64,000 nucleotides of DNA from positions 12,290,434 to 12,354,433 of the forward strand of contig NC_049989.1 in the NCBI RefSeq assembly GCF_000003815.2. The letters are read 5' to 3'. Every line of letters begins with the position of its first letter. The stretch's first letter is position 1. The position numbers were made by a program, and so were the translations under genes. Below are positions 9,130-56,721 of this stretch, one piece after another. The notes beneath the pieces were generated by a model that worked only from the letters and a program-made list of their open reading frames with translations, was not told the origin of the DNA and searched no databases. This stretch comes from Branchiostoma floridae (Eukaryota; Chordata; Leptocardii; Amphioxiformes; Branchiostomatidae).

Positions 9130-9235
9130 ATGCCACTTGAAGGTACAAAACGCGCAGGTGTGCACGCCCCCTGCCAACGGCCTGGCGAACTGCATCAGAC
9201 TGATCAAAATCTCCCCATAGCTGTCGTTGGAATAG
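9130..9235 (+). CDS. PKS exon 1: start codon and first KS strand
   Basis: ATG at 9130 opens 35 codons ending PIAVVGI, then one base (G) before the donor G|GTGAGT at 9236. The exon at 22626 starts with GT TGC CGG, so the join reads VVGIG-CRMPGG, the standard N-terminal KS motif. The exon may extend 5' as untranslated sequence to an acceptor (TTTTGTCCGCAG) ending at 9085. The match in both protein motif and splice phase is strong evidence although 13.4 kb separate the two exons. Transcript data would settle it. Confidence 0.85.
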
Positions 9236-12200
9236 GTGAGTCGACCTTCTATGTGCAGAGAAAGTGCTGTAAATGCAGTAAGGGAAGCGAACTGGATCTA
9301 GGATTAAAAGAATAGAATTGATTCCATCCTCTTGGGTTATACTGATTTGAATATATGGATGACATCCTCTGGGCAGCCCAAAACTGATGCGAGGTACCGG
9401 TGTGCCAGAAAGTTTGTGCCCATTAATTAAATGCTGCATCTATCATCAGAGTCACTGCACGAAAACAAGAATACCTAGCAATGTCTGGTTTCTTACACTA
9501 CCGTGGAACTTGACATGTCCTGGTCGTATAAACGAATTTCTAGCCACGGTGTCTCCGGTGCCGAATATCCCCAATCATTGCCGGACATGGCCATGTCCGG
9601 TAGTTCGCGATACCCGCACACTGCGTGTCTTGAGAAGTGGTTCAGTGAAGGGGTAGTGTGTATTCAAGTGATAATTGCTATCAATGTTTGTTTTTTTAAG
9701 AAAACGGTACTGAAAACAGTATAAACCTATCCATAGAATTAAAAAAACGAAAAACTTCTTTCTCTGTATCTTATTTCTTGCATTAAAAAAGCTTATGATC
9801 CTGATAACATTTTAACGTGTGTATATTCAGCTTACGGTACCGCAGAGTGACTTTACAAATTTCAAAGTTTGCACATGCTGCATGAATTATAACATATGAC
9901 AGTGCAACAAAATTTTTGACAGTTGAACATGTCTATTTCGTAACATGAAATGTTTCTACCCCGTATACTCAACTTTTCATGCAGTGAGTTTTCGCAAACA
10001 ATATTTAAAAAATTAGAGTCCATTCCAAGACACCATGAGGGTTTTTAGGCGATATTTATAATTAGTCTGAATTATTTTGAATAAAAGAATATCTGAGCCA
10101 CAATAACTAAATCATTTTCAAAAAACTGACTGAGAAAGTACTCATATATTTGAATTCCTTTGAATATTTTAGAAACATTTTGAAAGTAACTGTACAAAAA
10201 TATCTTTATTTAGAATAATTGTGATACCTCTGTGTGATTATTTCACATTTACAAATATTTACAAAAAATGGTAAACCTCGCCAAATGGTTAAATTAGTTT
10301 ATTGCCCCCATAAAAGTAAGCCCTATTGTTGCATCTGTATATTTTTAGATGTCACTGCTGGGCACTGGTGGGTCCTTTGTGGTGGGCCATTGTTGCATGG
10401 CACCCAACCACACTTTGCAAGGATGTGTGAATTGCTATCTTCCCAGCCCACTGAACCATTTTTAAAAAATGGTAGAAAATGGTAAATAATGGTAGAATCC
10501 TGTTATCATTATTTAGAAACAATTAGAAGTATCCAATTCCACACGATGAATATTTCCAAAGTTTTACAGGACCAGGTAATATTTATAAAGTTGAAACAGT
10601 GTTACAAATATTTCTGAAGTATCAAATGTCCCAGACATATAATTACAAAACTTTAAAATCAATTCTAAACAATGGCCACAAACATCCGCATGGTGTCTTG
10701 GAATGGACTCTAAACGGACAAAAAAATTATATCATCCATATAATGATGTACTGTAAATGCATTTAAGTTCGCGGGGATTTAAATTCGCGGCAGAGGGAAA
10801 CTCCGGGAGTGTTCGCTGAAGTTTAGAGTTTGCAGTAGCGCGCCCATACACTGTAGTCACATACTGTAATGTAAAAAATGTTCACAGTTGGCTTGAGTTC
10901 TGTGAGCGGTGATATACAGCTATCGTGAACATTTCTGCATTTACAGTAAATGCGGCCTTTTCTAATTATTACCGCGCAGCTGAAGCAAACTATTCAAATG
11001 TCACACATCATCCACTGACACGGAAAGCCACCCCACCAGTGCAAGTGAGGACACAGTTACTCACTTCTGCATGACTTGTACTGTCTAATCGCTTATGAGG
11101 TGACGGTGAAGGACCGACCAGTCGGCTACAGTTTGGACTGTTCGCAATTGTATACAGCCATGTCTGATGTGTGTGATCATTTGTTGGAAATGGCGTTGCG
11201 GACCAATTAGAATTCACAATGAACGCACCTTTTTGCCGAACAATTTTCTCTTCGCAAGCTCGCATCAGTTTTCGAGTTCACAGTGAATGTCAGCCGTGCA
11301 ACAAACAAATAAACAACATTTTGCAACCTTCGTGCCTTAACGTACTGTAAATGCAGAAACTTTCGTGGTGGATTAATATTCGCGTTTTTCGCGGCGGTCG
11401 CTTCACCGCGAATTTAAAACCACCGCGAACATTTTTCCATCACAGTAAGAGACTACAGTGCATGGTGCTACCGCGAAATTAAAACCACCGCGAAAAGTCC
11501 ATTTTCCCGCTACCGCGAAATTAAATCACCGCGAACTTAAATGCATTTACAGTATCCTGAGGCGCTAGAACCAGTAATTAAGTTGCGCAAGCCACTGTGC
11601 GCATGCTTACTATTGAAGGTGAAGGTTGAGGAATGACATGTATCTAGATGTCTTTTGAAGTGATTTTTTTTGGTTGTCATTGATATGTTATTGTGTCGTA
11701 CCTGGTTAAATAGTTATAAAAACATGGAAAACTTCAATTGGGAAGTTGCAATTCAGCACCAGAGTAGTAGAACGGGCTTTCGGAATTACTGCCAAATACC
11801 AAAAACTGGATAAAAGTCTTCCTTTTAAAGAGTCCTGAACTCCACAAGATCGTGTTAATTTCCCATAGTTCCCATGGTGATTTTAGGAAGTAAAACATGC
11901 ATGCTATTTCACATTCTAAGATATGATACCCACTAGTTTCGTCTACATCAAAAAGCTTTCAGGATTGAACATTATCAAACACTCTAATGTCACCACTGGT
12001 AAAAGAGGATAGTTTACGACTTTATTTAGGATAGTTAGCGAGTTTGTTGTAATGTTGTTGCAATTTTCCAAAACAAGATATAGCTGTAATTTTTACGACA
12101 TGTGCGCTTATTCGGAAAAAACGTGCTAAATGTGACAATATTTGTGTACGAAAATTCCGTGACAAATATAGCCGGCCCTGATTTTTTAATTTTATTTATT

Positions 12201-15200
12201 GATCTTTAGGGTAGTCCCTTCAGTTAACGTAATAACTGATTTCCAAGGGAGCCCTATATACATGTTCGCACATGTTCGCACAACGACGGGTTATACCGCC
12301 CCTTGAAACTTGAAACTTTATTACAATCAACTTTGCAGCCCCCATAGGGGCTGAATTGCATTGATTTTACACAACATATCATAACACAAAATAGCACTTC
12401 AGTCACCAGCGTTATACATATTGACAATTTGAGAAAGAAGCGAGATATCAATATAAAATCTTAAAACATATTTACATCAACATTTAGATAAAGCTTTTTG
12501 GGCTAGTGTCCGCGGTACAAACGACATCTTGTGTCGACGTGTTTTACTATGTGGCGTTTTCATTTCCACATTGCGACGTAGGTTGTATTGAGTTTTTACA
12601 ACAGGGGGCAGAAACTGTCTGCAGGGATGTGTAGTGTCCTTAAGGATCCGCTGCAGCTCGCGCATAGAGGCCTCGTGTCGCCTGGACTGTAGTGTAGGGA
12701 GTAGATGATGGTCCACGCCAATGATTTTGCAGCAGAGTTTTTGAATTTTTTCCAGTTCATCCGACAGGGTCTTTGGAAGCCCTCCCCACACAGGTGATCC
12801 ATACTCCACAATTGGCCGGATGAATGAGGTATAGATAGTTAGTAGTAAGTCAGAGGGTAGTCCGGCCCTTTTAGCAAGGCGTAGGTAGTGTATCCGTGGT
12901 TGTGCTTTGGATACCATACTTTTAACTTGTTCGTCCCAAGTAAGATCATGGGTAACAATAACTCCCAGAAGTTTGAATTTCGTGACTCTTTCCACTGGCT
13001 GGCCACCCAGCATAAGCGGTGGGGGATTAACTGGAACTCTGCGGCAGCTTATTACCATGTCTTTTGTTTTCTTTGCGTTTGCTTCCATGCTGTATGAAGC
13101 AGCCCATGACTCTACAGCAGTCATAGAGGTTTGTAGGATACCAGGAAGTGATCCCATTAGACACTCAGAGTTAGTCAGGTCATCCGCATACTTCACTGGG
13201 GTAACACTGGGGTGGATGTTTTCGTCCAGACAGTTCATGGCTATGACAAATAACGTCGGCGACAATATTCCTCCCTGGGGTGTGCCAGCTAGAACGGGTC
13301 GCGAATCCGAGACACATCCTCCCCATTTCACGCGCTGGTTGCGACCACTCAGGTACCTGTGTGAAAATTTGCCCATCCCGGACTAGTCCGGACCGGCATG
13401 AACCGTCAGTTCGAACCATGCAATAGTCCGGGGGTCGGACGGGTCGGTCGGACGGGACGGACGCTCGACAGTTCGCAGAACGGTTCGGACGGCCATAAAG
13501 GGTCCAGATTGGCCGCTTGGACTAGCCCGGACTACGTCCCGGACTGGTCCCGGACGGCATCGTTCGAACGCTTTCGGGCGGCGGCCTGGAGCGGGCCGTT
13601 CGAGCCGGTACGGCTCCGCCCGGGCCGGACGGCCGAACGGGCGGTTCCCATAGCAACAAAGCGATCCGAACCGTCTGGGGGCGTGCAGAGCACCGCGGGG
13701 CGCCGGTTCGGACGTCTGCGGACGTCTGCGAACCACCAATTTACATGGCAACTGTACCTCCCAAACACCCGTGGAATGCGTAAAATCGTGCTGTTGTGAG
13801 GTGGAAATCGCTGCCCAAACAGTTCGGACGGTCTGAACCGCCGGAATGCCGTCACAAAATAGAAAGAATTTGAATGCAATTCATCCCTCTGCCGCCAGCG
13901 CTCCTATAGACAAAGTATTAATGACGGCTTGAAGTTACAGAATGACACCAGCCGCAAGACAATCAATGTAAATCACATGTGCCCTCACTTTGACGTTATG
14001 TGCGTGCGGAGTCCCAGGAAACATTTGATTGCCCGCACAAACCATGTACAAAGCGTGAGTAATGGATTTCTGATGTCTTTCCGACTGAAGCGTGGTTACC
14101 AAACATGTGGTGGAGACACTATCACTAATATATGATATACATTCAAGTCCATAATCTAGAAGATTCATTTATAAACATCATTGAATGCCCTAATATATTC
14201 ATGCCAACGCTAGGCACGTTACGCACCCAGCGGCGGCGAGGGTTCAGTGACCCCATCTCAAACGTAAACAAGAAGACGATCCTATGAAGAAGCCAAACAT
14301 TTTGTTGGTGTGTGTTGAACTTTATTGTATTTTGTTGAAAGAAAGTTGTATCTAAATATTGAATTGTAATATATATGTTAATCTAGTGCCACAAAATATT
14401 ATTCTACGTGTCTAAAATAAGACTAGTTTTGATATAGGTGCTGGCCCCCATACGTGAATTGAACTCTCCCACACTTGATTGAAGCCTCCCGGTCCTTTGG
14501 GACAGCCGCCCGACAAGTGCGCACATGTCTATAACTCGTTGTTTGTTGTTTATCTTACGTTCCATGTGTTAATTTTTGGCACAGTTTGCACATCCATTGA
14601 CAGGAATACCACTAAGAATGATGTCGTCATTATACCCATTTCCTTTGTGTTTCTTGCCTTTTTTCACGAGCAAGTTATTCAAAGACGGGAAAATACGATC
14701 CAGATATCAATTTGCGAGCTAGTGGCTAGGCCACACCCACACAGCGCGAAACTTTAGGTATAGAGGCGTGCCGCTGTCCATCATCGCGTGGCGACCGACA
14801 AAATAATTAGCAACCATATATCCGCTAGCTGGGTGTCATGCTGTCCGTATTAGAAAACGTCTGCACAATTATTATTGGAATCTTTCGGCAGTAAATTTAC
14901 TTTGCGCACTTGTAAGCGACTTTTGACAAGACTGGTCGGTGTTCCCGTAAAGCTTTCCTTCTGTCCTAATCCCAGCAAAACTGGTCTCCGGGGACAGCCG
15001 CCTACCAGACCGATTCGTAGGGCAGGAATCAAAATGTCACACTACAACGGGTCTCCAATTTCTGGAAGGGTGGCAAAATCACCAATTGCAACGTCCGGCC
15101 GCACCGTTGAGCTTCGGCCGTAAGTCTAGAATCTACTTAAATTATTCAGCAAAGCAAATAGGATGTAAAATCTGCTTGTCTCTAGTGTATAGTTATTGTG

Positions 15201-18200
15201 CATGTGATTTCATTAACTTTTGTAAAATCAACGATATTCAGAAGGCTTCAGAAGTACCACGAGTGATACAACATGTATCATACAATGTTGATTGAATGAG
15301 TAGAGATTAAAAGACGTCACCCTAGAGGATTATTGTTAACCTACGCCGTAGACGTTTCAACTTTCACATCGCTTGATAGATTTTTATGCCCGTCAAAGGC
15401 ACATGTGTGAATTAGCAGGCGAAATCTTTACTTGCGGCACAAGTAAACAAACGCTTTTTGAAAAGTTGGTAAGGAGGAACAATATTAAACGGGGAGGATT
15501 ATTGTCGAGGAAATTCCGCTCGTGAGGACATGGATATAACGTCCTTGGGAGGAAGTTACTAGTATGCCATGGTGAGGAGAAGTAATTCTATGGAACGTTG
15601 ATATTAATATTTTTCAGTTGTAGTTGTACTCTACTCTCTCTACTCTATATGAAGCATGGACATGGACACCTGACGTGCTAATTCAGATTACGCTTAGTCT
15701 ACAGTTTAGTCTTTGTTCTGTGCATTTAGTCGTTACACAGCATTGGGCATGTACACAACCAAGATACACTTACTGAAGTACAGAGAAGAAAACAAATTCG
15801 CTGGAATTTCACAGGTTTTATCCCCAGGGGCAGGCAGGCGAGTTTCTAAAGCTTGAATCCCTGCTGACAATAATCCTGATAGCCCGTCCGAACGGTTCAA
15901 ACGGTTCGGGATTTACTGTGGCGTGTCCAGAGATCCGCCTGGCTCCGACATGTCCGACCCGTGATAACGTTGCCCCCAACCAGGGAGGTTTTATCAAACC
16001 CGGGACATTGAGGAAACAACTTCGTTACCTTCGTCATGGATTTAAAATTACCTCCGATCAGTGGTGTATGCGGAAATTGTAAGACGATCATAATCACATC
16101 ATTATCTTCGCCGAGAAGGTTATATTTATGATATAATTTGCAACGGTACGTGGAAACATGACTTCCTCTTTGCTGCAACAAGTGAATATTACGTCATCAT
16201 ACCACTGTGTTTCCACGAAAATGGGCGCTGAAACAACATTGTGCATAATACAGCCCACAGGAGTCCCAGTAAGTGCGGAAAAAATACATGCCTTCAGTTA
16301 GCCAGGATTTTGACTGTGCTGTTGATAATTTCACATCTAACACACTTGGTAACACAGCTAAACGATGTAAAACAGTTTCTTACCAGTTCAGTCTTGAACA
16401 AGATGGGATGTTTGTATTCCAGTCCGTTCGTATTCCACGGAAGTTTCGGCAGTCGGTTGGAACAGCACCAGAACATAATTCCACACAAATTGTTTGTGTT
16501 GCTAGTCCTTTTCCATCTCTCCATGGCAGTTTGATGCATCCTGACCCGAAACGACAACGTACAAACCCCTCACGCGACACCTCTTCCAACTTATCCATGA
16601 TAGTCTGTACATTTTGCCTTAGTATACGACTAAAAAGCGGAAAAATAACACAGGACATCAGGAAACGGTTTACTGATGAGTTTTCAATTTGAAATGACCG
16701 CGACGCACGCGCAATGCTCATGTTATCCCCAGGGGCAGACAGGGGAGTCTTTCAAGCTTGACACCCTGCTGACAATAATCGTGATAACCGGTCCGAACGT
16801 TCAGAACGGTTCGGGAGGCACTGTTGCGTGTCCTGAGATCCGCCTGTCCCTGGCCAGATCCAGGGCAGTTCTCTAAGTCTAACCTTTCATATTACGAAGG
16901 ATGAAGCGTCCAAATTTCTCAGGGGAACATGACACTGACCCCTAGATTGTGCGTCACCATCCCCAACCCCTATCAATTTGCGACGCACGGGTAGTGCATA
17001 GTCTCTCCTTCTGTAAGTGTAACGTGCTGGATGCAGCCATCCACGGCGTTTCTTGATCCAGTCGTCGCTTCGACTAACGAGTAATATATTTTCGAATTTT
17101 TATTGTACGTTTATGCTCTTAAAGCTAAGTACAGGTCAAAATGATAAAGTAGTTCTAACGCTTCTAACAACAATATGCATATAAAATGGTGGCGTTAGAT
17201 GTTCGGCTAACCGTTCCCTGTGTCCTGTTTTGGATACCGTACTCCAGCGTGACACAGCACTGTACTTGTTTTTAGTCCCACTTTCTTGATATAATGTCAA
17301 GGGGAATATCACTGGTCAAACTCAACACGTTTTCAGAGAGTCGATTGAAGTCTCGCTGCTACAGGTCGTCCAACAGGTGATCCAACCAGGTACTGCTCAC
17401 AAGTTCCTTTCCGGCCAAAGCATGCGCTTTGACTCCAAACGATGGTGGAAATTTTGGTAAGTGAGAAACATTCAAAATATTGCACTTCACAAATCATGTT
17501 AGGTATTGTCCACAAGGCGAGATAATGCCGGACGCCATGAAAGGCAATAAAGATGCTAAATACATTTTCAACATTATCTCCCGTATTATTGCACATTTGG
17601 ACAGAATCGTCGCTTGGTACAATGACAGTCAATCGAAACGTAGCGCAACTCAATGTCGTCTTATTTGTAAAGCGCCAGAGACAATTATTTAATCATAGGG
17701 TAGAAAGATTATATTTAGTTCTACAGAAAACAATGGTGGTCTGTAACTTTTCCCCGCCCGTTTTAACGCCGTGCGAGCATGATCAATCCCGAGTCGTATG
17801 GTGAAGACCTCAGGTGCCAGGGTGACCTACAATAGCATTGTCGTTTATTCTTCTTATAGTACTTTATTACACTGCGCTTGGAAGACAACGATTTTATTGG
17901 CGTGGGCAATGTAGTTAGTAAATCAAACACGACAGCAGAACGGACAATATAGCGTTCGTGTGATTTAGAAACGAAATACGGCGTGCCGAATTCTTATTCG
18001 CCATGCCACTGCGACTATCCAAGCGGTATCTGCTGTTACGTGTTTAAGACTTTTTTCTCATTTATCGCTAGAGAAAAATAAAGAGACAAACAGGACTAAA
18101 ACATATTCATTCTTCATGAGAACAGACTTCGTAACAATGACTTGTTCATACCTATAGATATTCATATGTCTGTTTAGTTATAGACCTTACGAAAGTCGCT

Positions 18201-21200
18201 TTACTTTTGTCGTGTCAATAAAGATTTTATATGCTGCATGCACGGCATTTGGTAGTGTACGAGATACGATACAAAGACTGGTACTTCGTGGCAGATTACC
18301 CTTTAATAATGGTCGAGAGGATAAACATGTAGGTGTGATCCGCGTACTCAACGCTGCATGGGCGTGATGGGCAATCCAAACTGTGCAGGTCGCGTACTAT
18401 TCCCTGGCCGGCTTACTCTTCTATTCATTCTATTTCTACGGTTTTCCAGCGACCCGGAGTCTGGTACTGGTAGAGACTAACATTTTCCTGCAAGGAGAGA
18501 GCAAGCCGACATGCAAGTCGGCAAGCAAGCCTGCCGACTTTATTAGACAAACAGGCATTTGTCGCAGTTCTCCCAGACGTATTTTCCCGTCCATAAAACT
18601 CGGACAGGGCCCACAACCTAAATTATGTCACAAAATGTGGCAATATGTAACTGCGAAAATTTTGGCATTGTCTTAATCACGTGGTTGAACAACGTGTTTT
18701 GGCTCGCCATATTCAGATGAATTTCCAAGAAACTTGATAGTGGGGCATAGGATTTCAGTTTCAGTTTCTTACAACCAATCATGTGGCTCATTATTTGCAG
18801 TGAAAATCGACGTCTCCGGCTCATTTCGTACAAATCGTAGCGATTGGCTAGCCAGTAAATAGATTGTCCCACACTGTACACATCAAACGGCTGCCGCCAG
18901 CATGGCGCCATGGTAACGGCCAATGTGTGGTGGGAAGACCACCAGAGCGCCGCTCACGTGCGCCTCACAGGCGGGATGTCAATCAACCCGCTGTTTATTT
19001 CAGCGGGTGCAGCCTGGAACTGGGGTCGCCGTGTTTTCCAAAATCATCTCGCACACTGGACAGCCGGGCTTTCTGAGCAACGTTCGCACATGCAGAAAAA
19101 CTGCACTGAGTAGCGGAGCAGATTCTTCAAAGGGTGACTCAACACTGTAAGCTGGAAATTGGAAAATGAACAGCATTTTATAAGTGTATGTAAACTTTGC
19201 TAGAAGACCCATCAGTTGGTTTTTGCTTAACTCTATTGAGTATTGTATTATACTCTACTCTTCACTTCAGATAGCCGTGCGTGGTGACATATATGTACAA
19301 GAAAACACGTCACCCATTCATTAGTCGCGGCCAAAATATAATATAGAAGAAAAGTTGTAGATTTGAAGGTAGAAAAATCTCAATTTTTTAAATTTTCATA
19401 GTACATTTTGTATTGTTCTGGCGATAGTGCAACGCTATTACTATTAGTGTTCGCCCGCTCTGGCTGTTGCCCCGCAATAATGGACGTAATGCATGCCTCT
19501 AACAATGTCTAATAGTCTCACCTACGGACTTTGCTGCTCTTCTGGCCGCTGCGCCTAGTGTACGGAAGGGGGCGCTGTCGCACGGCTTCATACAATTTAG
19601 GGACTTAGACAAAATTTGGCAGGGCGGCGGCAATTTTTTCTAAGTGTTTTACGGCGCCCGAAGCGTCCGGCGGTCCTGAACTGCCGAACGTGCTGAACCA
19701 CTTAATGACGGTTCACCGCCCGGCGCTCGGACTGGCAGCCTCGCGGGCCGGACGGCTTTGACGTAGGCGGACCGCTCGGACTGCCCTCGGACCGGTCCGA
19801 ACCGTTCGGGGCGAGTTGATTTTCACACAGGCAGCTAGAGATGCATGCCCAAAGGTTTCGTCTTACGCCCAACCTTGCCAGGCTACACAGGAGCTTCCCA
19901 TGGTCAATGTTGTCGAACGCTCGGGAAAAGTCTATGAATGCAACATGGACGTCCATTTTAGGATTGCTATTTACAGCGTCATGCCTTGCTTTGTTGTCTG
20001 TATGAGGGCTGAGACGGTAGACCTACCACGCCTGAAACCGTGCTGTGAATTGAGAATTTTGTCATCGGTGTCTCGCAATAGTAGCTCACGGACAAAGACC
20101 TCCAGCACTTTGCCAAGACAACTAGTCAAGGAGATCCGACGAAACTCTTCGGGACCTTTCGGTTTAGGTGTTTTTGGTACAGGCACGACAAGTTCCTCTT
20201 TCCACTTGCTTGGAAAGGTTCCCTTCTGAAGACAACTGTTGTAAATGTCCGTCAGGATCGGAGCGAGCTCCTCGTGGAAAGTTGTCAGAAGCCAGGGTGG
20301 TAATTGATCCCCCCCGGTTGCCTTACGTGGATTGACCCGTTTCAGCTGAAGCTTCACCTGGCCTATTATATGCTCAGTTCAGGTAAAAATCCGTCCGAGA
20401 GCTGGCTGGCTACATCCGCAACATCAGGAATGGAACGCTGTACGTTGGCCCAGACTGAGGAGAAGTGTTCGCTCAGGGACTCGCACATGTCTTTCTCTTC
20501 GGTAGCTGAGCTTTGAGGAGTTCTCCCTCTCGGCGCCGACACTCCTATCAGGGACTTGACCATGCTGAACCATTTGTTTGAGTCTGTGTGCTTGAGTTCT
20601 TCCACTTCTCTCTGGTAGTACAACTTTTTGGCAGACTTCAGACAGCGTTGAACCTTGTTTCTTAGCTTTTGGTAAGCACCAGTGTTACCCGACATGTAGG
20701 TTTTCTGTCTCTCAGCTATCAAGCGCTTTATGTGTGGGGTTATCCACGGCTTGTCTTGGGACGTGACTTTTCCCTTCTTCAGTGGCACTGTCTTGTCAAG
20801 GAGTGGACACACGATGGAATAAAAGCGCTCTACTTTCTGGTCAACGTTTGCGGTTTCCTCCACTGGCGTAAAGTCTACAAGGTTAAGTGCTAGCCCGAGC
20901 GCTCGCATCGCCTCAGGAGTACACTTCCTACGGCGGTGAACAAACACTGGATCCTTTGGCCAGGGTCTACCCGGGAGAGTTAGGAGCTGATGGTCAGACT
21001 GGCCAAGCGGTGGGTGATGCTGCGGTTGTTCGTTGTAGAACTTGGTCAGATTAGTGAATATAGAATCCAGCTGATTCTGACCTCGTGTTGGAGATTTTAC
21101 CACCTGCTTCAGTCGACACCTTGTGCACAGGGGCTGGTGCTTCAACTGGTTCGTGTCCCCCATCAGTATCACTCCAGACAGGGGGTATTTCATCTCTGCA

Positions 21201-24200
21201 GACTGGATAGACTTACACAAGTACGAGATGACTTCTGTGTCAGGTTTGCACCTTATCGTACCTGGTGGAGGATTGTACAGCACGCCGGTGATGATGCTGT
21301 TAACCCCTCTCGGCAGACGATCTGGGCGTATCCTAAGCCACAGGCACTCAAACGAATCATCTTCCAAGTCAACAAGTCTACTGTGAGGGATAGAGGATCT
21401 AACGTAAGCACATGCACCTCCATCCCCGCCACCAGTGCGGTCCTTTCTGTGCAGCACGAAGCCATTTAAGTCTACAACACTGTCTGGAATGTCTGGACGC
21501 AACCATGATTCGGTGATTCCTAATACCGATGAGCCTGTCTGTTCTGCAACAACGGTGAGTTCGTCTACTTTGGGCAGCAGCGAACGGGCATTACACAGTA
21601 ACATGGTTGGGAAACTATGACGAGCTTGCTGAGACTTATATTGCTGCGTTTTCTCGTTGATCATGGTCACCTGCTGAAGAACTCTCATTCGATCAGCGTG
21701 TTGTTTACTGTCCCATGATGATTTGCATATGAAACCCCGACGGGGGGTGCTTATCCTCCTAGTGTTCACAACTTGGATAAAACGCTTCAGGTTCTTGCCA
21801 CCCTTCTTACCTCTGGGTCGGGATCGTCTTAGAAGACCATGGCTGAGTAATCGCTCTTTTAAGGTTGACACAGATGGAGTAGCAGCTCGCCGGAGACTCG
21901 TTAAGAACTCCATGGAGTACTTCAGTGGGGCGGCCATTGTTCAGGTTGAGTGTTGTCGTCGTGACACGAAGTCTCCTGTTTGCGACGATTCAGGAACCCA
22001 GTTCTTCCATGAGTAATCCAAACCTGCCCACAAGCTCTCAGAAACACGACATCTTGCATAGAGCCTCCAGAATACGATATACAGTAAAATTGACGGAAAA
22101 ACAAAGGAAACAGGGCAGAGGTACAAAATACCGCGGCTGCCCTCGAGGGGCGCCACCTGTTACCCTTACGGGGTGACACACCCGTCCGGGTGAATGATGT
22201 AGATCACCATGTGGCTGATACGAGACAGAGGTCGCCAGGCCTCCATCCGGGTGATTTGAAGTGAATCACCAACTTCCGACAGAAGGATTTGCACCAACGC
22301 ACACCGCACCATCGCACGTGTGGGGGTTCTTTAACGTGCATGGGGTATGGCTCTCCCCATACACGGGACCTCCATTTAACGTCCTATCCGAGGGACGACT
22401 CATTTTTCACTTGAGTAAAGTGAGGAAAGTCGTGTAAAGTGCCTTTCCCAAGGGCACAAGACCGGCAACACGGCAGGCGGATTCGAACCGGCGACCTCTC
22501 GGTCACGGGCCGAATACACTACCACTGTGCTACGCGGCCCCACCACGATTGCATCACCTTCGTTAGTAATGGGGCATATATCTGACTTTTCGAGAATCTA
22601 AACTGTAGGTGTATATCCTCCCCAGGTTGCCGGATGCCCGGTGGTACCACCAGCCCCTCCAAGTTTTGGGACGTCATCAGCGAAGGACGAAACGTCATCA
22701 CGGAGGTACCAGCGGAGCGATGGTCCCTGGACGTGTACCACAGCACCGACCCGCACCAGTCAGGTACCCACGTCACGCGCAGGGCCGGCTTTGTGGACGA
22801 CATCGACATGTTCGACCACACCTTCTTCAAGATCTCGCCTCGTGAGGCCGCCATGATGGACCCGCAGCAGCGCCACCTGCTGGAAGTGACGTACGAGGCG
22901 TTTGAAGATGCAGGTATCACGCCTGAGAGTGTGTCTGAGTCTTGTGGTGTGTTTGTGGGAATAGGCATGATGGATTACGCTTTGAACATGGCCGATGACA
23001 AACACCTGTTCAACTCGTATGCAAACACAGGCGTTGCGCACAGCGTGGCCGCAAACAGAATCTCCTATGCCTTCAATCTAAAGGGCCCAAGTCTTGCCGT
23101 AGACACGGCCTGCGCGGCGTCCATGACAGCCCTACACTTAGGGTGTTCCTCCTTAAGAATTAAGGAATGCAGCGTCGCCATCGTCGGGGGAGCCAACGTG
23201 CTCCTCATGCCGGAGGTAACGGTGGCGTTCAGTGCCATGGGGGTGCTGTCACCTGACGGATTCAGCTGTCCGTTTGACGCATCTGCCAACGGCTACGTCC
23301 GCAGTGAAGGGTTCGGCGCCATCTTGTTGAAGCCTCTCAGCGACGCCATACGGGACAGAGATCACGTGTACAGCGTCATCAGGGGAAGTGCTATATCCGA
23401 TAACGGCTTCAGTCAGAGCATCACCATGCCGTCCTCCGGTGAACAGGAGAAGCTGATGAGGACAACCTACGCCCGCTTCGGAGTCCCTCTCTCAAGCGTC
23501 ATGTACGTCGAAGCGCACGGAACAAGCACGCCCGTCGGGGATCCTGCGGAGGCTGAAGCCATTGGTAAAACCTTCGGTAGACGTTCAGCCTCTCCGTTGA
23601 AGATTGGGTCTGCGAAGAGTAATTTCGGACACATGGAGTGCGCAGCAGGCATGGTAGGGGTCATCAAGACTGCGCTGATGCTGGACAGGCGAGCCCTCTG
23701 TCCCTCCGTCAACTATACCAAGCCGAGCCCCAAAGTCGACTTTGACGAGCTCGGCATCTCAGTGCAAACTGAGGTGGAAACCTTTCCTGACAACAAGAAG
23801 GTGACCCTCGGCGTCAACAGTTTTGGGTTTGGAGGAGCCCTGGCTCATGTGATAATGGAAGAGAGCAGAGCAACACGATCAGTGCGTCCGACCTACAACA
23901 AAAGGGGATGGCAGTTTGGAACTAGTGACCAAGAAGGTGATTTCATCATTCTGCCGCTCAGCGGAAAGTCTCCGGACGCCCTCAGGGACCTTTCCGCCAA
24001 GTGGCTGACGTACAAAGAGAAGGATGCCATCAAGGTTTCCTCGTGGGTTGCCACGCGCAGAAACCACTATCAAAACAGACTTGCTGTCGTCACCAATTCT
24101 GGCGCCAAGACAAGAGAGGGCCTGCAGGGTTACGTCAACAAGATGGCTGCCGATGACGTCATAACTGGAACAACACAGAGCTCCCGCCCAAAAGTTTGCT

Positions 24201-27200
24201 TCGTTTTCCCTGGTCAAGGGCAACAGTGGAACGACATGGGGAGGAAGCTGTATCAGATGGAGTCTGTGTTCAGGGATACAGTTGATACATGTGACAGGAT
24301 CTTCGCGCGAGTCAGTGGATGGTCCCTCTTGCAGAAGACCGGGCTGTTCACTTCAAACGACGGCCCCGCAGAGCTCACCCTCGCGGACATGATTGTCTCC
24401 CAACCTGCCATACTCTTCACCCAGCTGGGCTTGTTTGCTTTGCTGAAGCATTGGGGCGTTTCTCCCGATGTGATCGTCGGGCACAGTCTGGGAGAGGTCG
24501 CAGCAGCCTATGCCTGTGGTGGTCTAACTTTAGAGGAAACCATCCAGGCTATCCACATCAGAAGCACAGAACAAGCCAAACTACAGGGAACCGGGAGCAT
24601 GGCCGCCATGCGCGCATCAAAGGCAGAGGCTGAGGTGCTCATTGCCAAGTGCGAGGGTGTGAAAGTGGCATGCGACAACTCACCTACATCTGTCACCATC
24701 GCAGGGTCAACAGACGCCATTGCTACACTGCAAGATCAAAATCCAACAAAGCTGAAAAAGCTACTTGTCTCTTGCGCGTTCCACACATACCACATGGACC
24801 CAATCAAAGACGAGTTTCTCGAAGCGATGTCTTCCATACAGACAAACGGAAAAGGACAAGATCGCGCACCTCTGTACTCCACGACGACAGGGTGTCACTA
24901 CACGGGGAAGTTTGACGGTCAGTACTGGTGGGAGAACATCAGAGGACAGGTCAAGTTCACTTCAGCCATTCAAGCCATCATCCAGAACCACAATGCTGAC
25001 GTTTTCATCGAGCTTGGCGCCTCCGCTACGCTGTTGTCATCAGTCAACCAGACACTCAAGCACGAAAACTGTCCCATGAAAGTCACCGTAACGTGTGGAC
25101 AGCGCCAGCAAAACGACCACAAGTGCATGCTGCGTGCCTTGGCTACCCTGTACGTGAATGGGGTGGACATCGACTGGAAAAACGCTACCCAGGACGCAGC
25201 TGAATGGGCGCCGGTCCCTACATACGCCTGGCAGCACCAGCGGCATTGGCAAGAAGCCGAATCCTCGCGGAAAAGAAGGCTGGGTCTGGAGGACCGTAGC
25301 TTCAAGGGGCAGAATGGCAACATCACCCTGGAAAAGTTCCCCTTCCTCGCAGACCACGTGGTGAACGAAAGCGTGGTGTTTCCAGGGGCGGGATACATTG
25401 AGTACATGGTGCAGATGGCCATTGATAGCTCTGAAAACCCGGCACTGGAGAACATCCAGTTCAAACAAGTCCTAGTCTGGCCAGAAGGCAGTGACGTCAA
25501 CAAAAACAAAGCCTCGGTCCAACTGACATACACGAAGGAGAGAGGAAAGATAGAGGTAGCCACAGACAGAGTACACGCGGGATGTCTTGTCACCAAGTCA
25601 GAAGATGCTGGGTCAGAGGGCAAACTGGACACCAAACCATCAGAGGACATGAAGACAGTGACCTGCGAAACATTTTACCAGCGATTCAGTGAGTTGGGGT
25701 TGCTGTACGGCTCCGAGTTCCAGGTCGTGAGTGAGGCGTTTGTGGGTGACTGGAAAGCCATCGGGTTCCTGAAGCCAGCCACAGATGCACAGCAAAGGGT
25801 CCAAACAACAACCTTGGACGGCTGCTTCCAGGTTGCCCTCTCTGCCATTGGTCCAAGCTCGACTCTGTATCTTCCAACAGAGATCGCCACATTCAAGATG
25901 TACGTACCATCTCTGCCGCTCGGGGAGCCCATGGTAGCTCATGCCACGATTGTTTCCCGTACCAGCATGTCATTCCATGCTAACATTGCACTGGCGACTA
26001 TCCAGGGAACGATCCTTGCACAAATCGACGGATTGGAAGCGACAAATGTTTCAGGCATCAAGACAGACGTAAACACAGACAGCTGTCTGTATGAAACAAC
26101 ATGGCAACCTGTCACCTCACCTCTGCCACCAACAAGTATCTTCTGTGACCTGTTTAAAGAGGACCGTCTACAGGAGCAATACGGGGACGACATGGAGATG
26201 ATAGAGACAGCAGAGAAAGCCCTACCTAAGCTCAAACGTCTGGCGGTGTCCTACATTCAACACGCACTGGACTCTGTCCCCGAAAATGAGGTCAACCCAA
26301 GAAACAAGCGGTACGTACAGAGGCTTAGAACCATCGTCGATGCTGAAGGCAAAGAAAAGAACGACTCGAAGTCGCTTGATGAAATCCACAAGAGCTTGGA
26401 AGAGGTGCGAAAAGAGGTCCCGGCGATGGAGCAGGAGTTCAGCATGCTGCGGCGGCTCGGAGACATGTTGCCGACCAGTCTTCGTGACCCTTCCGCTGCA
26501 TTGCCGATTCTCTTTGCCGCCGACTGCCTGGCCGAATACTTCATGGACTCCCTGACAACAAGGATGTACTACCGCGCTTGCGCAGATGCCATGGAGCAAG
26601 CTGTGAAGGCCGCACTTCAGCGTAAACAAACCCTTCGGATTCTCGAAGTTGGAGGTCGCATGGGTGGACTAGCGCGCCACCTTCTGAAGCCTCTCAAAAG
26701 TCAGGGAGACGCGGGACACATTGAGTACGTCTTCACTAACCTAAACATGAGCTCATTCGCAAATTGCAGTAAAGTACTTGAAGATTACACTTTCATCAAG
26801 TTCCAAGAGCTTGACATCGAGGCAGCAGTGGTTCCACAGGGCTTCGTCCCGGGTTCGTTTGACATCGTCCTCTGTATGGACATTCTTCACTCGGCTGTTG
26901 ACGCGATGGAAGGCTTGAAGAACATGCAAAGTCTTCTCTGTCCTGGGGGATGGATAGTCATGATGGAACCGACAAATGCTTTCCACATGTGCGAGCTGAT
27001 CTTCGGGTCAATGAAGCTCTGTTGGATTTATGACGATAACTACAGGACGGACAACTGTTGGCTGTCGCGAGAAGGGTGGAGCAAGGTTTTCGCAGATGGA
27101 GGTATGTGTGATGTTGTGAGTGTGTCTTCGCCCGAAGAGTTCTTCCATTCCATTATCATTGGAAGAAAGCAAATGTCATCGCGTGAAGTCCCTGCTGTAT

Positions 27201-30200
27201 TGAGTAAGACTGACAGCCAACAGTGGCTTCTCTTGGGCGATTCTACCAGCCCTCTTACCAGTGCGATACAGGGGATGCTACCCGACAACTCCATGGTGCA
27301 TCCTATCGGTACAAGGATCGACATCCCCAGCCAAGGCCCTCCGTTGAAAGTCGTGTATGTCTGGATAGGAGAGGACAAGTCTCTGGGATTCACACGCACG
27401 TTAACCAAAGCCTTGTACCAGGCTTCTGCAAGAGTTGAGAACATGTGGGTTTTCACAGTAGGCGGTAGCGTTGAGTGTGCGAGACCGACGTCATCTCTCC
27501 CCGCGGGCTTCTTCCGCGTTGCCAACAATGAGATGAGAGACCTTCCCATCTACACGGTAGATTTGCCATCAGAAGTTCTTAACGGGTTGACAGGCGTTGT
27601 GGAGACCCTTCTCAAGTCCGACCCACCAGCGGAGAGAGAGTTAGCGATCCGTAATAATGAAGTGCTGGTTCCAAAACTACTCAGAACGTCAATCTCAGAG
27701 GGTATCATCACATCTCCTTCTGGTAACTGGGCTCTGGATATCGCTACAGGGAAGACGGGAACATTGGACGACATGGCATTCTACGAGCAAGTGCCCACGT
27801 CACTGTCACCAAAACAAGTTAAAATCGAAGTTCACGCAGCAGGTTTGAACTTCAAGGATGTGATGATGTCTCTCGGGCTTCTGGAAGGTCTCAACTTGCA
27901 AACACAGTTTGGCCTGGAGTGTGCAGGGACTGTCGTGGAAGTGGGCGATGACGTGGACAACATCAAAGTAGGAGACGAGGTCATTGCGTTTGGCGATCAC
28001 TGCTTCGCGTCACACGTCATCTGTGAGGAACACTTCGTCATGGCCAAGCCTGCACACATCAGCTGGACGGATGCAGCTGGGTTTGGCGTGGTCTATCTCA
28101 CCGCGTACTACGCCTTGATCGAGAGAGCCCGGCTCCAGGAAGGACAGACGGTGCTGATCCACTCTGCCTGTGGTGGGGTGGGACAAGCAGCCATACAAGT
28201 GGCAGGCATGGTTGGGGCCCGTGTGTTCTGCACCGCTGGAACGGACGAGAAGCGCGCGTACCTTCGACAGATGGGGATAACACATGTTTCCGACTCCAGG
28301 TCAACCCAGTTCTACCGTGACGTCATGGAGTGGACGGAAGGTCAAGGAGTAGACGTAGTCCTCAACTCCCTGTATGGTGATCTGCAAACTGAGACTATGA
28401 AGTGTCTAAAGCCTGGCGGCACTTTCTGTGAAATCGGGAAACGCTCGATGCTGGAAAGCGTTGGGATGAACATGAGCCTGCTGTTGAACAACAAGGCTTT
28501 CTTCTCCGTTCAGATAGACCTGTTGATGAAGGAAAGGCCTAAATATGTCCAACAGATGATGGAGACAATAGTCTCTCTTCTGGAGTCAGGTCGAGTTAGT
28601 GTCGTGCCGACGACAGTGAAAAGCATCGACGACTACAAGGAGACGTTTCGCTGGACGTCGAAGGGTCAGCATATTGGAAAAGTTGTCTTCAAGGTACCTA
28701 AGAAGTTTGAACCGGAGAACCTGGTGCCTTCTCCGTATACCCTAGATGTAGATGGTACCTACGTCATCACTGGCGGGTTCGGAGGAATCGGACAGGCTTT
28801 GGCACGCTGGGTGGTGGACCGTGGAGCAAAGCACATCGCTCTCCTGTCCAGAAGTGGATGCAGGTCGGCTGAAAATCGCCACACAGTCGAGTACATCGAG
28901 TCCAAAGGAGCCAAGGTGTACACGTATGAAGTCGACGTGTCAGACAAGACAGCACTGAGGAATATGCTGAATCATCTCAGAGAGGACACCTCGGTCCCTG
29001 CACTGAAGGGAATCTTCCACCTGGCTGCTGTCATTGATGACGCCAATGTGTTGGACGTGACGGACAGTCAGCTGGAAAAGTCCCTGGCGGCGAAGGCGTG
29101 GGGAGCTCTCCATCTGCACGAGCTGACACAGAAGGATGACCTGGACATCTTCTTCCTGCTGTCCTCCGCAGCTGCCACGTGGGGAAACCCGGACCAGTGT
29201 GGGTACGTGGCCGCCAACAGCGTCCTAGACGCCCTGGCGGAACACCGACATCGTAAGGGTCTCCCGGCACTGTCTGTACAACTTGGGGCCGTCAGAGGCG
29301 TGGGGTTCTTAGAGGGGAACACGAAAGCAGCCAAAATCGTCAAAGGGAAGGGGCTGCTGAGTCTGCACGTTGAAGAGGTACTGCAGATGCTGCCGCGTCT
29401 GTTGAAGGCCAGAGACACCCCCATGGTCACCCTCGCAAACATGGTACGTTAAACTTCGAAAATTTCATGCTATGGCCATGGAATGTACTGCTGAATATGA
29501 AATATCTTTAAAATGTTTCTACATAAGAATCTAATAAGAACATCAATAGCATATTTTCGTTCTGTTTCTTAGTAAACCTTATGTTGCTGATAATCCCTGT
29601 CCGGCTAATTACTGTGTACTTTTCTATTCAGGACTGGACCAAATGTCTGCAGTTGTCGTATCCAACCAACATGAAGTTTCGGCATCTCGCAAGTGAAAAC
29701 AGCAAGACGAAATCTTGTATGTTCTCCTTTCATGGTGTTAATTACTTTGCCTACTTATCTTAGATGATCGCCACGTGTCATAATTACAAATACATGAAAT
29801 GTTGAAACGAGCTATCTTTGTATATTCTCCTAGGTTATCCTTTCGTCATTTTAGATGGTTGGCGGTAGCCTCAATGTACTTGATTTAAGCTATCACGACA
29901 TGCTCTTTAATAAACATTTGACACACACGTCAAAAGTTCAAAGTTTCTAAACACGATTTTCTCCCCTTTTCCCACCAGCTGACACTGACCTGAACGAAGA
30001 CGACCTCCGTGAGCGAGTGTTGGAGCAGCTGGGACAGATCCTCTGCATGCCTGCGGACCAGATCGACCCCGACCAGCCCATGATCAACTACGGCGTGGAC
30101 TCCCTAATGGCCGTGGACGTCGTTAACTGGATGAACAAGAACTTCGACCTCAGCGTGTCCCAACTGGACATCCTGGGCGGCATGACTACGTCCACCATGG

Positions 30201-30223
30201 TGGGGAAAGCTGTAGTTGGATGA
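9130..30223 (+). CDS. Type I polyketide synthase (KS-AT-DH-MT-ER-KR-ACP), four exons
   Basis: Join of 9130-9235, 22626-29443, 29632-29716 and 29979-30223; all junctions are GT-AG and in phase, giving 2417 residues. Domains by rough residue: KS 29-450 (Cys198 in DTACAAS, His333 in EAHGT, His371 in SNFGH); AT 557-885 (GQGQQ, Ser656 in GHSLGE, AFH 753-755, which resembles malonyl-type enzymes); a PTYAWQHQRHW linker typical of PKS near 900; DH 936-1175 (His946, Asp1100 in LDGCFQ); MT-like 1325-1490; ER 1737-2055 (HSACGGVGQ); KR 2078-2265 (TGGFGGIG, Lys2192, Ser2215/2216, Tyr2229, Asn2233, and IDD at 2172-2174, B-type-like); ACP 2345-2412 (Ser2378 in GVDSL). Such enzymes extend and reduce an acyl chain iteratively in the cytosol. 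The chain ends 39 residues after the ACP serine, so no thioesterase or reductase is fused. The order matches fungal highly reducing PKS and animal fatty acid synthase without its TE. Product and release partner are unknown. Confidence 0.93.
10749..10948. mobile_element. MITE-like element, TACTGTAAATGCA family, copy 1
   Basis: The left end TACTGTAAATGCA and right end TGCATTTACAGTA are perfect inverted repeats. The inside has GTTCGCGG/CCGCGAA palindromes. A TA at each edge fits a TA target duplication. A degenerate relative ends at 1979. Confidence 0.65.
11343..11554. mobile_element. MITE-like element, TACTGTAAATGCA family, copy 2
   Basis: Perfect 13-bp inverted ends (11343-11355, 11542-11554). 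The body is filled with ACCGCGAA-type short repeats (at least six). It lies in PKS intron 1, 400 bp from copy 1. Confidence 0.7.
12261..13355 (-). mobile_element. CR1/L2-like LINE, 3' half (reverse transcriptase C-terminal part)
   Basis: On the - strand an open frame encodes YLSGRNQRVKWGG, then motif AGTPQGGILSP and the catalytic YADD, followed by the thumb region (LVIVTHDLTWDEQV-type signature, SPVWGGLP) and a stop at 12477. The 3' end carries two copies of the decamer TGTGCGAACA (12261-12280), like the short 3' repeats of CR1/L2 elements. It continues the 5' half at 19832-22160; the two were one element before the insert at 13356-19831. Confidence 0.88.
15819..15943 (+). repeat. 125-bp direct repeat, left copy
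   Basis: It starts at TATCCCCAGGGGCAG and ends near GAGATCCGCCT; the partner is at 16724-16848, with both inside the 6.5-kb insert. It contains TGCTGACAATAATC and a GTCCGAACG...ACGGTTCGGG palindromic block like those at the insert ends. The copies enclose about 780 bp. Confidence 0.65.
16724..16848 (+). repeat. 125-bp direct repeat, right copy
   Basis: Partner of 15819-15943, diverged by scattered substitutions. The pair could be the ends of a nested element or a local duplication; which is not resolved from sequence alone. Confidence 0.65.
19832..22160 (-). mobile_element. CR1/L2-like LINE, 5' half (endonuclease and start of RT)
   Basis: The frame 21937-20366 encodes an apurinic endonuclease-like domain: NARSLLPKVDEL, TESWLRP (catalytic Glu), GDTNQ and QSDHQLL, then a linker to the RT. 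A stop and frameshift near 20360 separate it from the RT start (NPRKATGGDQLP, GFRRGRS, FIDFSRAFDNIDHG with the motif A Asp). The RT stops at CISS, just where the 3' half resumes with YLSGRNQ. With the 3' half the element is about 3.4 kb and inactive. It lies in PKS intron 1, antisense to the gene. Confidence 0.88.
22160..22541 (-). mobile_element. tRNA-derived SINE, copy 1
   Basis: On the - strand the head reads GGGGCCGCGTAGCACAGTGG with a pol III A-box (TAGCACAGTGGTAGTG) and B-box (GGTTCGAATCC). A long central domain follows (GACGTTAAATGGAGGTCCC, CACGTTAAAGAACCC). It is nearly identical to copy 2 in the sulfotransferase gene. It sits 84 bases upstream of PKS exon 2. Confidence 0.85.
22626..29443 (+). 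CDS. PKS exon 2: KS to KR in one 6.8-kb exon
   Basis: Acceptor CCCCAG ends at 22625 and donor ATG|GTACGT begins at 29444. The 6818-nt exon encodes residues 36 to 2308 and carries every catalytic domain except the carrier protein. The in-frame ATG at 22634 lies inside the KS motif (GCRMPGG), so it is a poor candidate for the real start. SAM-binding motif I of the MT-like region reads ILEVGGRMGG (1374-1383) instead of the usual ExGxGTGG type. This suggests a structural, inactive methyltransferase like the one in animal fatty acid synthase (inference). DH has Glu where HxxxGxxxxP has Gly, but keeps His, Pro and the later Asp. Confidence 0.95.
29632..29716 (+). CDS. PKS exon 3: KR-to-ACP linker
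   Basis: Acceptor TTTTCTATTCAG ends at 29631 and donor TCTT|GTATGT begins at 29717. The exon adds 28 codons plus one base (DWTKCLQLSY...NSKTKS), starting in phase 0 and ending in phase 1. No motif is visible; the piece links the reductase to the carrier domain. Confidence 0.85.
29979..30223 (+). CDS. PKS exon 4: acyl carrier protein and stop
   Basis: Acceptor TTTTCCCACCAG ends at 29978; the first two bases complete a Ser codon. The exon encodes an about 70-residue acyl carrier domain with GVDSLMAVDVVNWM around the phosphopantetheine serine (Ser2378), then stops with TGA at 30221. Nothing follows the ACP, so chain release must use another protein, a transesterification or hydrolysis step elsewhere, or release in situ. 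Confidence 0.92.
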
Positions 30224-30786
30224 TATCGCTTCCTTTGTTTGAGTTCTAATTAGGAAAAGCATTTCTGTAGACTGCCGTATTCAGAAAATGCTCTTTGTCT
30301 TTCATAAGGGAGGGTAAAACTGGATATATAGTTTTCTATTTTCTATACAAAACTCTGTAGATTTGCGGTTGTGATATTTATATAGTAAAGGGGAAATAAC
30401 GACCACAGATTGAATTTATTTGATTTTATGTATGCATGGTGCAATTTGTGGGTTGTCACATTGTTAGATTTGCTAATTGAATCTATGTTTAGAAATACTG
30501 ATATGTTGTAACATTGTTAGGTTTGGTATTTGATTAAATTTGTGGAAATTCTGGTATTGAAGTTAAATTGTGGTAGTATTGACGGCAATTTCTTTTCTTT
30601 GTGGCATTCGGAATATATGTTTAGGTGACTATTATCAACCATTAATTATAAGAATTAAGACTTCATTTACATACGTTATCAGTACCGGAAAAGCTTTTAT
30701 AGCCTTCTATTTCAAGATTTTATTCGACAATGAAGTATGATCACTGCATAGGAATTCATACTACGAGTACGCAAGCTGCCATGAGT

Positions 30787-32375: not shown

Positions 32376-39556
<7,181 letters not shown>

Positions 39557-42420: not shown

Positions 42421-42926
42421 ACAAGAACGGCCACACCCCCGTCCCGCATACGCACAGGTATGCTGCACCTGAGGATTGTTTACTTTCCTCAGCCAAGCCA
42501 AATGTCAGAGGTCATCGGTCGCGGTTGATCAAACAGGTGAGACAGGTAAGACCAGGTACAGAATAACATCACGTGACCCGCTTAAGCTTGTTTGTACAAC
42601 AAAACAGTCAACCCAGTGACGAGCGTCGTACACAGGCTGGTATTTTTAAACGGCCAGGATATTTCCGACTCAGAACGTTTTAAGATGTAATCTTCTACCA
42701 CGAACATTGTGGTATCAGGTAAGGGGACTGGCAAACTTACAAAAACAGACAATTTAACGAGTACAAGACTCCCAGATCAGTTGACATTAGGTGTGGCGAG
42801 CGAAGCACTAAGTTACGTGAATCGTAGTCACGCAGGGGTTCAGCCCTCGCTATTTAATCCAAGGTTCAGGCAGTCTTGAAGAAGGACGGTTTAGGTCATA
42901 GAGAGATCTTCGATGCGGCTGCAACC

Positions 42927-55665: not shown

Positions 55666-55902
55666 GGTTGGGGAGATAAAATGCAGTGGAAGGAGAGGGA
55701 CGGGCTCCGTCATCCTGTAGCGAGCCCTAAACACAATGTTATTGTTAGTGTCCGCCATGTTAATGCTTATATTTTGACTCTTCCGTGTTGTGTTTATTAG
55801 AACACTTACATATCTACTTCGTTGTATTCAACAAATGGCTATTAGTCCTAAAAGATTCTTGACATTTTCTTCCCAGACGCAAGTGTTGAATAAAGATCAA
55901 CA

Positions 55903-56721
55903 ATGGCACATTTCAAAGCTGCAGTGTGTGTGTACATGACAATCCGAGTTCTCGGCATCGTGCTATTCCTGTGTGGAGGCATCCTGATCGCTGTTACACT
56001 GTCGGTCGAAAGCTGCCTGCTTTTCTGCAATCATGATCGAATGCCGACAGGGGGCATCACAGTCTTGGTCGCTGGGGTGGCGGCAGTAATTCTCAGCGCC
56101 GCCTTGCAGTGGTGCAGTGAAGTGCAGAACAAGGGAGGTCCCACCGACGTGGAAAACGTGCTAGTACACTACACACGGCTGTCGCCAGAGTACAACACAG
56201 ACTCCAAACGCCCATCTCTTGAAACTGATACCGCGGAGGGCATTACTGGACAGTCTGTGAAAGGAGAAACGATCATCACGCAAGCTGCTATAGACGAAAA
56301 ACTGAAGAGGATTCCAGAATGGCGCCTCTTACGGAGCAATACCGCCGAGCGAGATGGCAAATTCCCTCGCGGAATAAACTCAGTGCAGATGAGTCCATCG
56401 TACAGCGAGGTAGATACCTTTTCCTTCACGCTATTCGATGATAAACATCGAAGGTACCCTGCTACACCCGACTTGTGCTATTGTTCGGAATTTGGTGATG
56501 ATCATGGTACAACAGGTTCTCATGCAAAAAGAATGGGAATTTGTAATGATGGAATGACAACCAACCAGGCGAATGATGAAACGTTTGAAAGAGGCGAGAA
56601 TGCTTCAAAAATGCCCTGTAGTCCTGCGGCAAACCGGCCTCGATCGCAAAGCCTTTGTTTTCCATCCACTGTCAAAACCTCTACAGACACTGCTAACACC
56701 ACACACACGCGAAGTGACTTC
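55903..56721 (+). CDS. Two-pass membrane protein, paralogue A, cut by an assembly gap
   Basis: ATG at 55903 follows a likely UTR acceptor (TTTTCTTCCCAG ending at 55876). The frame stays open for 273 codons up to the gap at 56722. Membrane segments lie at about 15-38 and 50-71, separated by a short Cys-containing loop (CNHDRMPTGG). The cytosolic tail begins with HYTRLSPEYNTDS and is hydrophilic. HYTRxSPxYNT and the TM2-Trp-Cys ending (LQWC) are shared with the gene at 60817, so the two are paralogues. After the gap an open frame runs to 57055, but it contains a dispersed repeat also seen near 61905-62000 and may not be coding. The 3' end is therefore unknown. Confidence 0.7.

Follow-up and report, generated by a model that had tools for sequence, protein, structure and literature searches.

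A reducing polyketide synthase gene of Branchiostoma floridae that ends at its acyl carrier protein and carries a degenerate methyltransferase domain

A 64,000-nucleotide stretch of the Branchiostoma floridae genome (RefSeq assembly GCF_000003815.2, contig NC_049989.1, positions 12,290,434 to 12,354,433; hereafter the window, with positions counted from its first letter) carries on its plus strand an apparently intact type I polyketide synthase (PKS) gene. The gene is complete as modeled: four exons encode a predicted protein of 2417 residues, with ketosynthase (KS), acyltransferase (AT), dehydratase (DH), methyltransferase-like (MT), enoylreductase (ER), ketoreductase (KR), and acyl carrier protein (ACP) domains in that order. 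How animal megasynthases that lack a thioesterase (TE) release their products is an open problem, and the locus offers a complete gene, an intact reducing set, and a linked candidate tailoring enzyme, a sulfotransferase (SULT). In our view, the gene is probably of the canonical kind of animal type I PKS: reducing, TE-less, and with an MT-like domain that would be structural only.

Structure of the gene

Most of the protein is encoded by exon 2 (22626-29443), which was delimited by Pfam matches and splice sites and holds the KS, AT, DH, MT-like, ER, and KR domains within 6.8 kb. It has 2272 open codons between an acceptor (CAG|GTTGCC) and a donor (ATG|GTACGT). Exon 3 (29632-29716), placed by splice sites and frame, encodes the KR-ACP linker, and exon 4 (29979-30223) encodes the ACP (motif YGVDSL; Pfam PP-binding, 1.7e-12, and ACP_SdgA_C, 8.7e-11) up to the TGA stop codon at 30223. 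The frame is preserved through exons 3 and 4 to this TGA, and every junction is GT-AG. The frame is not a chance one because it has 2272 codons with six recognizable domains plus an ACP exon; a chance open reading frame (ORF) or a pseudogene is ruled out by the open codons, the fitting splice sites, and the intact motifs. Poly(A)-like signals occur 3' of the gene at 30533 and from 30798 onward.

The initial annotation described a gene with the domain order of a reducing PKS at 22626-30223. The order stands, as a Pfam search of the protein returned KS, AT, DH, MT, ER, and KR in sequence (27 families at E ≤1, the best 25 considered), with the ACP after them. The start has to be moved. Since the KS frame begins inside the motif GIGCRMPGG, we scanned upstream for an exon ending in VVGI|G and followed by a donor, and the strict pattern matched twice, at ~9.2 kb and ~1.5 kb in the window. 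The 9.2-kb candidate (9130-9235, plus strand) has an ATG at 9130 in the context CACCATGC, reads MPLEGTKRAG...NLPIAVVGI, and ends at the donor G|GTGAGT. Joining 9235 to 22626 gives MPLEGTKRAG...NLPIAVVGIGCRMPGG, and the splice restores VVGIGCRMPGG across an intron 1 of 13.4 kb. From motif and splice signals, we predict that 9130-9235 is the true start of the PKS, an exon that had been overlooked together with the adjoining sulfotransferase gene. The gene would then have 3 introns per 2417 codons, two of them C-terminal.

The second match to the pattern lies in an upstream duplication of exon 1 and its flanking intron (1441-1679 vs. 9151-9384, 79% over 248 alignment columns), with 81 of 90 bases equal from 9154 on (82 of these 90 exonic). 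A further duplicated block pairs 2057-2165 with 10981-11096 (82.5% identical). The 1.5-kb copy retains an open frame and the donor, has no ATG in that frame, and is either a decayed copy or an alternative first exon.

Intron 1 also contains LINE-like (long interspersed element) reverse-transcriptase/endonuclease fragments on the minus strand (12480-13382 and 19705-21940); among 86 ORFs searched against Pfam (see below), three matched RVT_1 and one Exo_endo_phos. A SINE-like (short interspersed element) dispersed sequence is present in two copies that are 95% identical (22181-22543 and 33250-33611), the first of which stops ~80 bases upstream of exon 2. Symbiont contamination was considered as a source of the gene, and the spliceosomal introns, the LINE- and SINE-like repeats, and the animal-type SULT gene argue against it.

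Catalytic residues

Active-site residues were compared with 249 high-scoring segment pairs (HSPs) from tblastn across 80 bacterial loci (those kept of 590 confirmed), several modules per locus. In the KS, these are C198 (C in 128/136 HSPs), H333 (134/137), and H371 (136/136); in the AT, S656 (S in 122/132); in the DH, H946 (69/71) and D1100 (55/57). The ER keeps its GGVG motif (glycines in 37-38 of 38 HSPs), the KR has K2192 (93/93), S2216 (91/93), Y2229 (76/93), and N2233 (92/93), and the ACP carries S2378 (84/84). The earlier claim that the reducing domains keep their key residues is thus borne out, aside from one substitution in the DH motif to which we return below.

AT position 754 is F, in the motif CAFH (F in 90 and S in 14 of 120 HSPs), which we take to be a malonyl-type signature. 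A methylmalonyl-type AT is not supported, the motif reading CAFH. The study of the Elysia enzymes EcPKS1 and EcPKS2 likewise argues, in the part cited, from AT motifs (PMC7280274). Given a malonyl-type AT and an intact KR, a reduced, non-aromatic chain is therefore predicted.

The linker after the AT, PTYAWQHQRHW, had been put forward as a sign of a PKS rather than a fatty acid synthase (FAS). It does match the bacterial PKS consensus (P in 118/118 matches, fifth position F in 77 or W in 41, final W in 112/118); the other half of the argument, that FAS would differ at this place, is taken as background.

The methyltransferase-like domain

The MT-like domain (26390-27199, plus strand) was aligned with 29 bacterial C-methyltransferases (C-MTs), drawn from 31 tblastn matches in 22 of the 80 loci; one truncated sequence (L012) and one with no C-MT motif and P at the glycine position (L041) were left out. 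Motif I for S-adenosylmethionine (SAM) reads ILEVGGRMGG (residues 1374-1383), with R1380 and M at positions where all 29 bacterial sequences have G and T. The post-I acidic residue (D in 27/29, E in 2/29) is N, in FTN. All three altered positions belong to SAM-binding motifs. The initial annotation had called this domain degenerate on the strength of motif I, and the alignment agrees: the motif is broken, differing from every one of the 29, and SAM binding has probably been lost.

Other parts of the domain are kept, namely the catalytic-type His (29/29 in the bacterial set) and Glu (E in 24/29, D in 5/29) and the LDIE and QGF segments. The AlphaFold model is a confident C-MT fold (pLDDT 86, pTM 0.85). 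These features would suit an MT that is still active despite the altered SAM site, an alternative to which we give little chance, considering that the three SAM-motif positions are unlike those of all the aligned C-MTs and that an Arg in the glycine loop would be expected to hinder SAM.

Searched against the PDB, the region matched 11 sequences at E ≤0.1, mostly from PKSs or related C-MTs and none from FAS (CurJ, AprA, DisA, PsoF, 7dmb, citrinin PKS, LovB, and PKS16, then three weak matches to other methyltransferases). Foldseek placed the model closer to PKS-type C-MTs (TMq 0.74-0.81) than to the psi-domain chains of human FAS (0.56-0.60; best 50 of 1866 matches). The model was built on a C-MT-only alignment, which biases it toward a C-MT-like fold, and it speaks to the fold and not to pocket coordinates. 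We conclude that the domain probably descends from a C-MT ancestor and not from the pseudo-MT of FAS.

Chain release

The stop codon comes directly after the ACP. On the plus strand at 30.2-46 kb, 94 of the 98 ORFs reaching 42 aa were searched at E ≤0.5 (the four omitted lie at a simple-repeat stretch), and none matched a Pfam TE or alpha/beta-hydrolase family. Three further sets gave the same negative: elsewhere in the window, 85 of the 102 ORFs with 85 aa or more and one additional ORF (E ≤0.1); on the minus strand at 30-52 kb, 136 of its 150 longest ORFs; and on the plus strand before 22.5 kb, 122 of its 150 longest (minimum 37 aa and E ≤0.05 in the last two). The scans reach exons down to 37-42 aa; shorter ORFs, whether plus-strand beyond 46 kb or minus-strand before 22 kb, lie outside them. 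What they turned up instead was Sulfotransfer_1. The absence of a release domain, as first described, therefore holds for the protein, which ends at its ACP, and no downstream TE appears among the ORFs scanned (94, 86, 136, and 122).

We picture the enzyme as follows. The AT (CAFH) would load malonyl-CoA and the KS would condense; the KR, DH, and ER, whose catalytic or cofactor motifs are intact, would reduce the chain to a programmed extent as it grows; and the MT-like domain, being purely structural, would add no methyl group from SAM. The acyl chain would stay on the C-terminal ACP until released in trans or by spontaneous cyclization. The product would be linear and unbranched, a polyene or a chain resembling a fatty acyl group, reduced partly to fully, and the adjacent sulfotransferase might sulfate it afterwards.

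The vertebrate-centered paper PMC6334511 describes, in the passages cited, animal PKSs as nearer to bacterial PKSs than to FAS and as having no release domain, and suggests a trans partner for the vertebrate enzymes; it also notes that mycobacterial MAS has no release domain, its product being taken over by PapA5, an acyltransferase. Lin et al. 2024 (PMC10764717) state, in the sections drawn on here, that a TE is present in all animal FASs and absent from mo-clades 1-3 of the animal FAS-like PKSs (AFPKs), and that how most of the TE-less AFPKs offload their chains is unknown.

Relationship to known polyketide and fatty acid synthases

With the whole protein as query, the PDB returned MAS (772 bits), PKS16 of Dictyostelium (758), DEBS (618), 7zma, a two-KS bacterial chain (609), pig FAS (600), LovB (549), and EcPKS1 (446), among the best 60 of 200 matches. 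The KS alone scored 602 bits to 7zma (two KSs summed, 288 + 311), 427 to CurL, 385 to PikA, 348 to MAS, 346 to PKS16, 314 to LovB, and 271 to FAS, and EcPKS1/2 were not among its best 60 of 134 matches (the 60th at 234 bits). With a FAS KS as bait, EcPKS1/2 scored 435/412 bits and CurL 299. In pairwise identity with 47 comparators, human and mouse FAS were lowest (39.1% and 38.0%) and bacterial PKSs reached 50.6%. By similarity, then, the KS appears to be PKS-type rather than FAS-type.

A KS tree was less decisive. Its 48 rows were the window KS, 38 hand-picked representatives of the 80 loci, and nine reference KSs, which did not include psoA or the second 7zma KS; there was no animal PKS or AFPK, one amoeba row, and one fungal row. 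Neither FAS nor LovB was sister to the window KS in the best trees. An approximately unbiased (AU) test rejected a clade of the window and MAS KSs (p 0.0077).

Several observations weigh against placing the gene among canonical animal PKSs. In the DH motif HxxxGxxxxP, E replaces G (G in 37 and E in 7 of 71 HSPs). The 48-row tree puts the window KS beside Dictyostelium PKS16 (support 80/56, both branches long), and without the two longest rows it lies by four Verrucomicrobia PKSs (79/77). The AU test does not reject the window KS with FAS (p 0.148, and p 0.277 without the two longest rows), with LovB (p 0.153), or all four together (p 0.079). Two of the three introns are C-terminal, whereas Lin et al. 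report N-terminal concentration for mollusc PKSs. Finally, the vertebrate-centered paper lists animal PKSs, where it gives their architecture, as KS-AT-DH-ER-KR-ACP, without an MT (PMC6334511). The earlier preference for a PKS over a FAS accordingly holds for the KS by score and identity, with CurL well above FAS, and not for the tree, which leaves the FAS clade unrejected.

The AU results are also a point in favor of the gene being a member or offshoot of the animal FAS/AFPK line, and AFPK mo-clades 1-3 are likewise TE-less, with many AFPKs keeping a pseudo-MT (Lin et al. 2024, as far as cited; PMC10764717). Yet the KSs of FAS rank last in similarity among the 47 comparators, the KS scores far lower to FAS than to CurL, the MT is closer to PKS C-MTs than to the FAS pseudo-MT, the post-AT linker is PKS-type, and six domains share a single exon of 6.8 kb, in contrast to the intron-dense structure reported for AFPK/FAS genes. 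We regard this origin as having only a very slight chance of being correct.

The tree position raises another alternative, namely that the gene is an amoeba-like PKS such as those in "mo-clade 5" of Lin et al. 2024. That separate lineage, present in mollusc data, is the sister group of amoeba PKSs and may derive from symbionts. PKS16 is the only sister in the first KS tree, and it stands third in the whole-protein PDB table, behind two MAS rows. However, the support is weak, the identity to PKS16 is just 41.7%, and mo-clade 5 is singled out in the cited part of that study as the one likely with active MTs (PMC10764717), while by motif the SAM site here is broken; the introns, repeats, and animal-type SULT described above would also tell against a symbiont. 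This alternative has, we think, a small chance. Recent transfer from a sampled bacterium was rejected as well, there being no close relative (best KS identity 50.6% among 47 rows); a strict first scan of genome contigs confirmed 0 of 27 pattern matches.

We infer probable membership in the group of canonical animal type I PKSs (SpPks1, CrPKS, ApPKS, and MuPKS, and the mollusc PKS clade), which share the reducing-PKS domain order and resemble bacterial PKSs more than FAS. According to the account cited (PMC11414698), echinoderm PKSs are without a TE, and in CrPKS and SpPks1 the cMT is non-catalytic and the KR Tyr is missing; members from vertebrates are TE-less too. The window PKS differs from CrPKS and SpPks1 in having the KR Tyr; because its KR is intact, unlike that of these urchin and crinoid pigment enzymes, a reduced chain is predicted. 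It differs from the vertebrate PKSs, as listed, in having an MT-like domain. In the sections cited, Lin et al. 2024 describe mollusc PKS genes as intron-poor, and animal PKSs and AFPKs as FAS-like in architecture with exceptions at the C terminus (PMC10764717); the gene here has few introns as well. The lack of a TE and a non-catalytic MT, which the initial annotation implied to be odd, have therefore already been described for animal PKSs. The interpretation in that annotation is mostly sound, but the gene is of a standard kind; what makes the locus stand out a little is that the gene is complete and has a sulfotransferase linked to it.

Outside this group, the fungal highly reducing PKS LovB has the same domain order and homologous KS and C-MT domains; its KS is 41.9% identical, and the SAM motif is broken only in the window PKS of the two. 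MAS, one of the two best whole-protein matches with PKS16, is alike in having no release domain and differs in its KS, grouping with which was rejected; it has no MT and uses methylmalonyl. Metazoan FAS is alike in its order of core domains and in having an MT-like domain that is not catalytic, and differs in its TE, not found for the window PKS, in KS identity (38-39%), and in MT fold, ours being nearer to PKS C-MTs. The AFPKs EcPKS1 and EcPKS2, also TE-less and from an animal genome, are unlike the window PKS in three ways: its KS is much less FAS-like, its AT is malonyl-type where EcPKS1 uses methylmalonyl-CoA, and its ER GGVG is intact where EcPKS1/2 have no functional ER. EcPKS1 has no TE and makes no use of SAM, its MT not serving methylation (PMC7280274, in the part cited).

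A neighboring sulfotransferase gene

A cytosolic sulfotransferase gene of six exons (32376-39556, minus strand) lies tail-to-tail with the PKS, 2.15 kb from its stop codon. The exons, placed by their junctions, are 39556-39400, 38676-38450, 35466-35334, 34823-34729, 33866-33710, and 32485-32376. The gene is intact (Pfam Sulfotransfer_1, 4.7e-63, profile positions 1-255 of 255), and its product, queried without exon 2, matches SULTs in the PDB. Its 3'-phosphoadenosine-5'-phosphosulfate (PAPS) loop reads PKSGTN, the usual form being PKSGTTW. A GC-rich, near-palindromic tandem array occupies 35852-36133 inside an intron, and part of it recurs inverted near 38303-38379.

A single locus cannot show whether the two genes work as a pair or are neighbors by chance. 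As a biosynthetic pair (a gene "bundle"), the PKS would make a reduced chain that the SULT then sulfates, perhaps on an ACP-bound hydroxyl during release; we hold this idea as tentative and, on balance, unlikely. By analogy, such a pair would mirror co-expression elsewhere: in the passages cited, expression of pks and sult in the urchin is pigment-cell-specific (PMC3144734), and pigmented cells of Xenoturbella express a PKS and a sulfotransferase (PMC10951248). A study of a freshwater mussel reports, in the part cited, that purple-nacre animals have raised levels of two PKS transcripts whose gene numbers are adjacent, and that golden animals also show the rise for one of the two (PMC12652611). 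A literature search at the level of titles and abstract openings found no report of PKS-SULT gene linkage, and we do not claim that it is absent from print. Were the linkage to prove conserved elsewhere, it would offer a testable lead into animal polyketide pathways; otherwise, the SULT is a chance neighbor.

Other open frames

Three plus-strand frames encode small proteins with two hydrophobic stretches each (42858-43277, 55894-56700, and 60805-61245). The last two are relatives of each other (38% over 108 positions, E 7e-18), with VHYTRxSPxYNT in common; the protein at 55894-56700 had no Pfam match at E ≤0.01. At the far end, also on the plus strand, an open frame of 576 aa (62271-63998) runs off the window and includes a 147-bp tandem repeat (63328-63757).

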